Positions 17,977-42,149 of a DNA stretch of 43,858 nucleotides are shown one piece after another. The position numbers were made by a program, and so were the translations under genes. The number at the start of each line of letters is the position of its first letter. Positions within the stretch are counted from its first letter, which is position 1. Origin of the DNA: a virus; IMG/VR virus record IMGVR_UViG_3300028423_000204, positions 1 to 43,858 of that record; one strand, 5' to 3'. The notes below the pieces were generated by a model. It was not told the DNA's origin. It was given only the letters and a program-made list of their open reading frames with translations, and ran no database searches.

Positions 17977-18024
17977 AAGGAGAGAGGGGAGGATTGTTAT
18001 CCTCAATCCTTCTCTCCTTTTTTA
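17977..18024 (+). terminator. Rho-independent terminator of the early operon
   Basis: AAGGAGAGA pairs with TCTCTCCTT around an inner GAGGAT-TGTT-ATCCTC hairpin and is followed by a T-run (TTTTTTATT). It ends the + strand operon just before the stop codon of the converging late operon. On the - strand the stem is present but no good T-run follows, so it may work poorly in that direction. Confidence 0.75.
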
Positions 18025-38281: not shown

Positions 38282-40219
38282 TTATGTGTTTCTATTTAAA
38301 GGGTAACTGCCGACAATGGTGTTACCTGTTCCAGAATCAGACACCCCAGATGAGCCTAGATGGGAGCTAAAGATGACATTATTACTAGAGGTTGAGTTGA
38401 ACGACACAGGATTGGCCACAGACCCAGTGTAGTCCACAGTTAATGAATTACCAGAACCCTCCACAAGCAAGCCAGCGTCTCCGTTTCTAAACTGAACTTG
38501 TATTTTATTATCGTCACCTGATATTCTAGCGGGGGTTTGTCCATCAATTACTTTCTTTATTATGCTTATATTCCAATTACTTGCTCCAGAGTTAACCCTG
38601 CACCCCTCAGCAAGCTGTGGGTCATCTATAAAGATATTAACTTCCGAGCCAGAGCCGTCACCGTTAAAGTAAAGCCCTCTTGACGATTGATAGTCAAGCC
38701 TGTTTATCACCAAGCCGCCCCCCTCAAGCTCGCCAGCTCGCCCCTGCGAGTCAGTGCTCCCGTTGACGCACGTCAAATGCCCTATAACGCCTTTCTTGTT
38801 TCCTGATAACTTAAACGGCCCATCAAAAGCTGCGCTATAACCTACTCCGCAAATCATCCTTTTAACTTCAATGTTAAGCAAGAAACCCGATCCTACTCCG
38901 CTGGTTTGAGTTACTTCGCACTCCACGTAGTTAGATATAAACGTTTTCTCTCCCTCACCACCGAAATTAAACTCTGCGTCTGTTATTAGTTTATCTCCAG
39001 TAACAATCATATCATCTCCGCCGGTAAGCCTAAACCCAGAAGTCGCTCCGTTGTTTGTGAGCTTTAGGGTTCCAAAACTCATAAAAGATACTTCGCCAGT
39101 GTTAGGGTCTGCGAACAAGCCGGCACCTGCATTACCCTTGCAGACTGTTTCTCCATGAAACCTTATATTAGAGTATTTTTCCGCTTCGAGAGGCTCTATA
39201 TCAACCCCTGCCTCTGGGCTCTTTCCATTGGTATTCAGGAACTGTCCGTTGTAGACATCAACACCCGTTCCTCCAACACCAGATCCAGCATCACTTAAAC
39301 CTTGCCTAGAGCAATTATCACAAAGGGGATCATATATATGTATATTCTTTAAAGTACCGCCAGAACCGCTTGCTCTTATGTATATTCCGTCTGTATCTGC
39401 GTTCAAGCAGGTAGGGTTGTACCAGTTTATATCTGCGCCCTGAGCAAATTGTATGCAGTGCATTCCCCCATCACCAGACCATAAATACCCAAGATCAGGG
39501 CTACCTGATGATGTTATATTGTTTCTGTTTCCGTCAATAACGCCGCCATAGAAGTTAACATTGCTAACAGACTCAGCAAAAGTAACCAAGCTGGTTTGGG
39601 GGTGCGTTCCAGAAAGCATTTTTAGCTTGGCATTACCAAAAAAACCTGTTGTGTTACTTTTTGCAAAAAGACGTAGACAACTAGACTCAAAGTTTTCAGG
39701 AAAATAAAAAAACCTTTGTGATATAACGCTTTGGATAGCGCTAGTGTAGTCAACGTCATTGCTTTGTAATGGGATGCCAAAATCAAAAGTTGATATAAAA
39801 ACATTTTCGACATTTGTCCTAACAAAAGCCCCTGTCCCCGTACCCGTCCAGTCAAGCAGTACGTTAAGGTTTCCCTGAGTGCCATCCCAAGCGGCAATAG
39901 CTTCTGGCGTAATAACGGTGCCGCCGTTATGGTCTGCTTTATCTCTCGAAGCATCATAAACAAACTGACCGCCGCCAACTTCCGAGCCAGCATAAAAGCC
40001 TGTAACATCGTATTGCGCTCTGTCTTTAAGAGGGGCATTGACGAGTGCTTTTATTCCGTCAAACACTTTACCTTGGGCAGCAGACTTACCCCCAACTGTG
40101 CTCCCATCATGTACACGTAGGTCATCATTTGTTGTATCTACTGTTGTCTCACCTACCTGTCCTGTGAAACTATCGTGCTCTGTCTTAGTACCACGGCGTA
40201 GTTGTAATCTTGAAGCCAT
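38282..40219 (-). CDS. Tailspike / receptor-binding protein with right-handed beta-helix
   Basis: 645 residues. Residues 1-45 (LQLRRGTKTEHDSFTGQVGE...VHDGS) match the major-tropism-determinant-type N-terminal domain. A connector follows (YDVTGFYAGSEVGGGQFVYDA), then from about 180 a pectate-lyase-like beta-helix (FYGGVIDGNRNNI, GIYIRASGSGGTLKNIHIYD) likely trims or binds capsule or LPS, and the C-terminus is strand-rich. From about residue 50 on, codon choice is richer in GCC, GGC, AGC and ATA than in neighbouring genes, suggesting module exchange. Confidence 0.8.
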   Translation of the reverse strand: MASRLQLRRGTKTEHDSFTGQVGETTVDTTNDDLRVHDGSTVGGKSAAQGKVFDGIKALVNAPLKDRAQYDVTGFYAGSEVGGGQFVYDASRDKADHNGGTVITPEAIAAWDGTQGNLNVLLDWTGTGTGAFVRTNVENVFISTFDFGIPLQSNDVDYTSAIQSVISQRFFYFPENFESSCLRLFAKSNTTGFFGNAKLKMLSGTHPQTSLVTFAESVSNVNFYGGVIDGNRNNITSSGSPDLGYLWSGDGGMHCIQFAQGADINWYNPTCLNADTDGIYIRASGSGGTLKNIHIYDPLCDNCSRQGLSDAGSGVGGTGVDVYNGQFLNTNGKSPEAGVDIEPLEAEKYSNIRFHGETVCKGNAGAGLFADPNTGEVSFMSFGTLKLTNNGATSGFRLTGGDDMIVTGDKLITDAEFNFGGEGEKTFISNYVECEVTQTSGVGSGFLLNIEVKRMICGVGYSAAFDGPFKLSGNKKGVIGHLTCVNGSTDSQGRAGELEGGGLVINRLDYQSSRGLYFNGDGSGSEVNIFIDDPQLAEGCRVNSGASNWNISIIKKVIDGQTPARISGDDNKIQVQFRNGDAGLLVEGSGNSLTVDYTGSVANPVSFNSTSSNNVIFSSHLGSSGVSDSGTGNTIVGSYPLNRNT

Positions 40220-41352: not shown

Positions 41353-41362
41353 GATATCTCCT

Positions 41363-41967
41363 AGAGCTTTCGCTCTTGTGTGTTTTCTACGTTATTCTTT
41401 TTATGCGGCTTTGCCGTATTAGCTAAAGGTATAGCTTATACTTTTTAAGTTGTTAACTACCTATGTTTATAACTTAAAGGAATATAGACAACATAGACCG
41501 AAGGTCGCTACACTGTGCCTAAAGGCACGCTCCGCTCTAAAAACATAACGCAGAAAAGCGAACCATGAGCTTGCTCATTGTGAGCTAGGCTGTGCGAAGC
41601 ACAAGCCCCTAGTTAAAATTTTATGCAGAAATGTCGGAGACATCATGCACCCCTACATCAATCCCCCCTGTTCCCCCTTGCGGGGTACAGCAGTTCATCA
41701 AGGGGGAGGGGGTGCAATCGAAGATTGTCATTCCTAATCTAATCTGTCGATTAGCATGGTAATGCTTAATCGGTGTGACTCGGAGAGTCGTATTACACTC
41801 TCACGAGTGCTCCCACTTCTTTATCACTGCCTCTCTATTGCCATAGAGTGTGTTATGTAAGGCTTTCGCCTTAGTACCTATAGTATTACGTTGATTAAAA
41901 TCAACATTCACTGCTGTTATGGGCTGATAGCTATTGTCATAGCTTTACTGCTTAGCCTTGGCAGGCT
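41363..41967. repeat. Array of about 18 perfect mini-hairpins in gene-free DNA
   Basis: Stem-loops with 4-8-bp perfect stems and loops of 2-4 bases follow one another. Examples: AGAGC-TTTC-GCTCT (41363), CGGC-TTT-GCCG (41406), GACC-GAA-GGTC (41496), GTGCC-TAAA-GGCAC (41515), ATGAGC-TT-GCTCAT (41565), GTGC-GAA-GCAC (41592), ATGTC-GGA-GACAT (41631), CAATC-GAA-GATTG (41715), GACTC-GGA-GAGTC (41777), CACTC-TCAC-GAGTG (41796), CTCTAT-TGCC-ATAGAG (41833), TAAGGC-TTTC-GCCTTA (41858), GTTGAT-TAAA-ATCAAC (41890), AGCTAT-TGTC-ATAGCT (41929), AGCCT-TGGC-AGGCT (41954). Stems differ, loops recur. Also a longer GC stem at 41646-41716. No ORF is supported. It forms the leader of the late operon. Confidence 0.85.
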
Positions 41968-42033
41968 GTATTGTTTACTTATATGCTTGTATCTGTACTG
42001 TTAGACCCTTCTGGCAATAAAATAAAAACCCTT

Positions 42034-42063
42034 ATAAAACAGTAACATAGTAATTAATTTCAA
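42034..42063 (-). promoter_or_regulatory. Candidate late promoter upstream of the hairpin array
   Basis: On the - strand: TTGAAA (-35, 5 of 6), an 18-bp spacer and TTTTAT (-10, 4 of 6) preceded by TG at the extended -10 position. Transcription would run through the hairpin array (41967-41363) into the putative holin gene. No other good late promoter was found to its left. The region is AT-rich, so chance similarity is possible. Confidence 0.35.
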
Positions 42064-42081
42064 TTTATTTTACTTTTATAC

Positions 42082-42110
42082 TTGATTATTCTTTTTGTCT
42101 GTTCCATACT
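42082..42110 (+). promoter_or_regulatory. Candidate promoter for the small + strand genes
   Basis: TTGATT, a 17-bp spacer, then CATACT (each 4 of 6 to consensus), 39 bases before the gene at 42150. Divergent to the candidate late promoter. Only moderate matches. Confidence 0.3.
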
Positions 42111-42149
42111 TTCAAACGTCAACAAGACAACAACCAAAAGGAACACACA

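Follow-up and report, generated by a model that had tools for sequence, protein, structure and literature searches.

A dense array of short hairpins occupies the gene-free gap between the divergent late and early operons of a phage assigned to the Zobellviridae. The array is genuine and extreme in degree, and its location in the genome-end (concatemer-junction) region is well supported, with the terminal repeat itself predicted from sequence likeness. Tentatively, we favour a role of these hairpins, as DNA, in the maturation of the terminal repeat or in packaging. The window analysed is the whole 43,858-nucleotide stretch of IMG/VR record IMGVR_UViG_3300028423_000204.

Judged from its sequence, the source is a marine bacterial virus, a podovirus of the Zobellviridae (T7-like podoviruses): its terminase shares 56% identity with those of Pseudoalteromonas phages RIO-1 and HP1 (both Zobellviridae), and its polymerase 49% with the counterpart in Vibrio phage VPMCC5 (Zobellviridae). 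No sigma factor was recognisable near the polymerase gene. The late operon runs leftward from 41352 and the early operon rightward from 42150; by this gene order and by terminase identity, the gene-free gap between them corresponds to the Zobellviridae terminal-repeat region. The convergent gap between early and late operons contains, at 17980-18022, an inverted repeat that has a T run and resembles a strong terminator. The contig ends (1-99 and 43760-43858) are identical over 99 bp, which is most readily explained by a k-mer overlap left by the assembly of a circular contig rather than by the phage's own terminal repeat.

Hairpin density and loop types in the divergent gap

Within 41363-41967 we counted 17 perfect stems of at least 5 bp (loops of 2-5 bases), compared with a mean of 2.2 and a maximum of 8 in 500 dinucleotide-preserving shuffles, and 27 stems of at least 4 bp against 9.0 (maximum 19). 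The whole gap, 41353-42149, contains 15 non-overlapping perfect hairpins (stem at least 5 bp, loop 2-4) where shuffled sequences have 2.0. An earlier note on this DNA had listed about 18 perfect mini-hairpins in these 605 bases, with about one expected by chance. The excess is real, while a few of the listed sites overlap a neighbour and the chance expectation has to be corrected to about two. As shuffling did not produce similar hairpin counts, the array is not a chance product. Some of its stems lengthen once G.T pairs on the + strand are permitted.

The array is the densest 600 bp within its own contig, and it also ranks densest against 260 loci (3.44 Mb) fetched from relatives, both in hairpin count and in GNA/GNNA loops. 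No other gene-free stretch of the contig comes close; four hairpins are the most that any of them has (1259-1780). We discarded low complexity as a cause: the dense loci L064, L075 and L076 consist largely of TA-rich repeats, which the phage array does not. Several tests were conceived after the sequence was seen, so the p-values given here are guides only.

The recount also upheld what had been claimed about recurring loops, including the C(GNA)G closure of all five GAA/GGA triloops: C(GAA)G occurs three times (once with a 4-bp stem), and C(GGA)G, TTTC and TGTC twice each. Most other loops had been said to read GNNA on the opposite strand, and all seven tetraloops of the non-overlapping set are indeed TNNC on the + strand, that is, GNNA on the − strand; the triloops are GNA on +. 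Overall, 11 of the 12 tri- and tetraloops in the array read GNA or GNNA on one of the strands, whereas the share of such loops in the remainder of nine genomes is 15.3% (p = 1 × 10−8); the biased loops are mostly closed by C-G. The stable DNA loop classes d(cGNAg) and d(cGNNAg) are of this type, as the earlier note had pointed out, and the array hairpins are probably very stable as DNA.

Table 1. Features of the divergent gap, with positions in the window.
Positions	Strand	Feature	Basis
41353..42149	.	Divergent gene-free gap between late and early operons, houses the hairpin array	Gene order, hairpin count
41363..41376	.	Hairpin AGAGC(tttc)GCTCT, immediately 5' of the ribosome-binding site of the first late gene	
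41383..41557	.	Imperfect long-range stem, arms about 41383-41400 and 41540-41557, several hairpins inside	Predicted folds and sequence
41403..41419	+	Hairpin ATGCGGC(ttt)GCCGTAT, 7 bp including one G.T on +	
41425..41445	+	Hairpin AAAGGTATA(gct)TATACTTTT, 9 bp including one G.T on +	
41496..41506	+	Hairpin GACC(gaa)GGTC, C(GNA)G loop	
41515..41528	.	Hairpin GTGCC(taaa)GGCAC	
41565..41585	.	Alternative hairpin pair ATGAG(cttg)CTCAT / GCTCA(ttg)TGAGC	
41591..41603	+	Hairpin TGTGC(gaa)GCACA, C(GNA)G loop	
41624..41653	+	Probable packaging site TGCA-N17-ATGCACCCC; predicted repeat start 41646	Motif and exact spacing in relatives; RIO-1 annotation
41631..41643	+	Hairpin ATGTC(gga)GACAT, within the 17-base spacer of the probable packaging site	
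41646..41712 (right edge ±5 bp)	.	Predicted direct terminal repeat, one copy at the concatemer junction, holds CCCC(ttgc)GGGG	Inferred from RIO-1 and sequence
41715..41727	+	Hairpin CAATC(gaa)GATTG, C(GNA)G loop	
41739..41754	-	Hairpin CTAATC(tgtc)GATTAG, GNNA on −	
41753..41766	.	Hairpin AGCAT(ggta)ATGCT	
41774..41792	+	Hairpin TGTGACTC(gga)GAGTCGTA, C(GNA)G loop, 8 bp including two G.T on +	
41796..41809	-	Hairpin CACTC(tcac)GAGTG, GNNA on −	
41833..41848	-	Hairpin CTCTAT(tgcc)ATAGAG, GNNA on −	
41858..41873	-	Hairpin TAAGGC(tttc)GCCTTA, GNNA on −	
41890..41905	.	Hairpin GTTGATT(aa)AATCAAC	
41929..41944	-	Hairpin AGCTAT(tgtc)ATAGCT, GNNA on −	
41954..41967	-	Hairpin AGCCT(tggc)AGGCT, GNNA on −	
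42000..42115	+	AT-rich stretch with weak candidate early promoter TTGATT-N17-CATACT, 5' of the first early gene	By eye; under the promoter-scan cut-off

The predicted terminal repeat and the homologous gap of relatives

A motif search that allowed 10-24 bases between the halves recovered TGCA-N17-ATGCAC(C/A)C in the gene-free DNA of six lineages, always with exactly 17 bases in between. It was found with this identical spacing in L004, L005/L006 (RIO-1/HP1), L007 (KZY1), L009 and L015, and the motif of the phage is that of RIO-1, HP1 and KZY1. We consider it a probable packaging site. The same divergent gap of RIO-1 includes an annotated 121-bp terminal repeat that begins TGCACC, its first base being that of the second TGCA of the motif; the annotated terminal repeat of VpV262 also lies within the homologous gap. 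Since the motif occurs at 41624 in the phage and the RIO-1 repeat starts at the second TGCA, we place the predicted repeat start at 41646. Likeness to the RIO-1 end (CATC.AGGGGG) puts the right edge near 41712, for a predicted length of about 65-71 bp, and the inverted sequences TGCACCCC (41646-41653) and GGGGTGCA (41709-41716) lie at the two edges. Published Zobellviridae terminal repeats measure 74-138 bp with one exception of 711 bp (PMC9960094), and those of cobaviruses, for which a conserved GC-rich 5' end is already on record, 159-173 bp (PMC6775973).

Hairpins flank the predicted repeat on both sides and the array continues across it. Palindromes adjoin the predicted repeat, as expected of a T7-type junction with a hairpin intermediate. 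The spacer of the motif, which forms a hairpin in the phage, has other dyads in the relatives.

Eight of 13 relatives were hairpin-rich in the homologous gap when compared with shuffles: RIO-1 (12 v 4.8, a count that takes in both repeat copies and thus one hairpin twice), HP1 (10 v 4.2), KZY1 (12 v 3.3), T4S1 (8 v 3.0), 1.253 (15 v 5.5), VpV262 (14 v 4.0), and L015 (6 v 2.3) and L033 (7 v 2.5), in which the gap was identified from gene order. The homologous gap of T2S1, VPMCC5, 172P1, ICP2 and CRP-5 had no significant excess over shuffles. Pooled over the 13 relatives, 33 of 86 tri- and tetraloops were GNA or GNNA on one strand, a share above the 15.3% of the remaining sequence of nine genomes (p about 1 × 10−6) and above the 22.6% of non-coding DNA elsewhere in them (p = 0.016). 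The phage therefore resembles the Zobellviridae terminal-repeat region (RIO-1, HP1, VpV262, cobaviruses) in its divergent gap, hairpin excess and GNA/GNNA bias, but differs in degree, its hairpins being packed roughly four- to fivefold more densely than those in the gap of the relatives and its loop bias being 11/12. We found no description of hairpin arrays in this region in the accessible literature.

Stem sequences were not shared between lineages. In the sole close pair, RIO-1 and HP1, CTACC(GTA)GGTAG corresponds to CTACC(GCA)GGTAG, where the GNA loop is kept and its middle base changed. The comparison with relatives proposed in the earlier note thus had a divided outcome: hairpin richness and loop type are kept there and individual stems are not, so stem-by-stem compensation is not demonstrable. 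Searches by DNA similarity, patterns, the neighbouring holin-like gene, terminase, tail-fibre and primase turned up the array in no other sequence and yielded no relative close enough for aligning it; the nearest contig, L011 (63% terminase identity), ends short of the gap.

Two other features of the relatives were observed. A conserved segment of ~500 nt leads from an early sigma-70 promoter to the first early gene in RIO-1, HP1 and KZY1 (L005 618-1158, L006 30271-30812, L007 43581-44091); it is structured-looking, has no Rfam match, and is absent from the phage and the other loci. The primase/helicase region of HP1 contains two group I introns according to Rfam (L006 41709-41979 and 42483-42764), at a place where its record has separate hypothetical genes, and that of RIO-1 one annotated intron.

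Possible roles of the array

The main rival to a DNA-hairpin role is a structured leader or non-coding RNA. Transcription of the array would then run either leftward, giving the late operon its 5' leader, or rightward, and the hairpins would shield the transcript, adjust translation or be bound by a protein. We rate this as possible, if on the unlikely side. Folding with shuffled controls, as the earlier note had advised, showed that both strands beat shuffles as RNA (z of -5.5 on + and -9.6 on -), and they did so as DNA too. One hairpin directly precedes the first late ribosome-binding site in the phage, and in L033 a consensus-like sigma-70 promoter is separated from a late gene start by three minihairpins. 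(The L033 region, 443-780, has two such promoters and a run of minihairpins, the three following the second promoter.) Stems with G.T pairs are confined to + (6 v 0), and L015 has an equal 6 v 0 split in favour of that sense strand; a single folding strand, either DNA or RNA, may be the reason. However, the favoured strand is the rightward one in the phage, while HP1 shows the reverse and RIO-1 no bias. The promoter scan found no strong promoter to transcribe the whole array, which moreover runs on across the predicted terminal repeat. No single RNA strand carries both loop types in RNA-stable form, and the third base of the GNNA loops shows no purine preference (R:Y of 3:4 in the phage, 10:7 in relatives and 42:29 in the background); the lack of such a GNRA preference favours DNA over RNA as the active form. 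Rfam gave no match at gathering score and a single chance-level match (E-value of 2.7). Two further RNA candidates were dropped, a CsrB-like sponge RNA (just two GGA loops) and a terminator array (merely three weak candidates). Promoters of the N4 virion RNA polymerase type also invite comparison, as they too are minihairpins with C(GNA)G triloops and stems of 5-7 bp that lie close to a genome end. The phage has five C(GNA)G triloop hairpins on +, one of them with N4-like spacing (41631-41643, C-AGAA-ATGTC gga GACAT), and an identical scan of the first 2500 bases of N4 picked up C(GNA)G hairpins at two positions, 102 and 573, in line with the early promoters of that phage. This polymerase recognises -11 A/G, -10 G, -8 G and +1 C (PMC4496689), but by eye none of the five phage hairpins has all four bases (41631 is without -8 G and 41591 without +1 C), and most array loops are instead GNNA tetraloops on the other strand. 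No single-subunit RNA polymerase was found among the large proteins of the phage. The 1542-aa protein has its match in a family of internal virion proteins; by sequence, neither it and nine relatives nor their 10-member profile matched a polymerase in Pfam or the PDB. A PF00940 search of the whole contig gave no match, but neither did its controls, so this result carries no weight. With the required bases missing and no polymerase in sequence and profile searches, the doubt that the earlier note had voiced about such a use was justified, and we regard N4-type promoters as highly improbable.

Two further explanations were considered. Some plasmids and ssDNA phages use hairpins as single-strand initiation sites, and those of the array could play this part for the primase-helicase of the phage, beside a replication origin in the AT-rich DNA at 42000-42115 that adjoins it. 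A T7-like primase-helicase and a family A polymerase are encoded. Against this, the AT-rich, gene-free stretch at 1440-1660 is longer, has two near-identical palindromes (TTAATCTaaAGATTAA and ATAATCTaaAGATTAT) within a larger inverted repeat, and is a possible replication origin at least as good; moreover, the terminal-repeat position accounts for the place of the array more directly. Initiation sites are thus improbable to us, and we judge a purely neutral origin to be similarly unlikely. Template-switching would then have perfected short palindromes, without function, in DNA near the ends that is often single-stranded. The stems differ and are unconserved between lineages, the region is gene-free, and terminal regions are likely single-stranded during replication. 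Yet the loop classes are strongly biased in phage and relatives alike, and one snap-back process on one strand would not yield both GNA triloops on + and GNNA tetraloops on -.

The presence of weaker versions of the hairpins at the same place in relatives suggests a role in cutting, copying or packaging the genome ends. At the junction between genome copies, a single terminal repeat would have to be doubled when the concatemer is cut. The palindromes would act as DNA, folding when the junction strand is displaced, nicked or supercoiled, and the gap would offer a displaced strand many folding places. Folded hairpins might then be turn-around or pause points in repeat duplication or, alternatively, shape marks recognised by terminase. 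What we infer is that the hairpins fold in vivo, that DNA and not RNA is active, and at which step they act. More doubtful is the specific version in which the concatemer junction, with its array of differing minihairpins alike only in loop type, would be recognised by terminase or replication proteins through the shape of the DNA (GNA/GNNA loops) and not through sequence. Among the uses the earlier note had listed (leader RNA, DNA entry or replication signal, protein-binding array), it is the DNA replication or entry type of signal that gains support. That the array straddles the predicted repeat and the probable packaging site had escaped that note, as had the weaker version in relatives.

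In T7, a hairpin containing the terminal repeat forms during infection, and models of repeat duplication invoke strand displacement or primase-started synthesis (PMC4281155). Like the predicted junction of the phage, that of T7 has a short terminal repeat between genomes, and the right end of T7 is hairpin-rich (7 v 2.2 shuffled). The T7-group repeat and the phage array both have a C(GAA)G-type hairpin (C(TTC)G, equivalent to C(GAA)G, in T7, T3 and phiYeO3-12) with differing stems. The terminal repeat of T7 contains GTCAACC(ttc)GGTTGAC (39843-39859; L261 844-860), with a GAA loop on the other strand, and those of T3 (L267 857-871) and phiYeO3-12 (L270 948-962) contain TTAACC(ttc)GGTTAA, where the TTC loop is kept and the stem changed relative to T7. 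We rejected hairpin excess as a general T7-group trait, as it was significant only in T7 among seven right ends. Those of T3, SP6, gh-1, phiYeO3-12, K1F and phiKMV had no hairpin excess or dense array, so arrays are not generally needed for terminal-repeat maturation. The lack of stem conservation between lineages and of an excess in 172P1, ICP2 and CRP-5 also counts against the DNA reading.

How phages double a short terminal repeat as the concatemer is cut is still debated, one of the models involving hairpin intermediates. Because hairpins and loop type recur here where sequence does not, they offer a direct, testable handle on repeat duplication. The probable packaging motif may in turn aid the placement of genome ends in metagenomic Zobellviridae.
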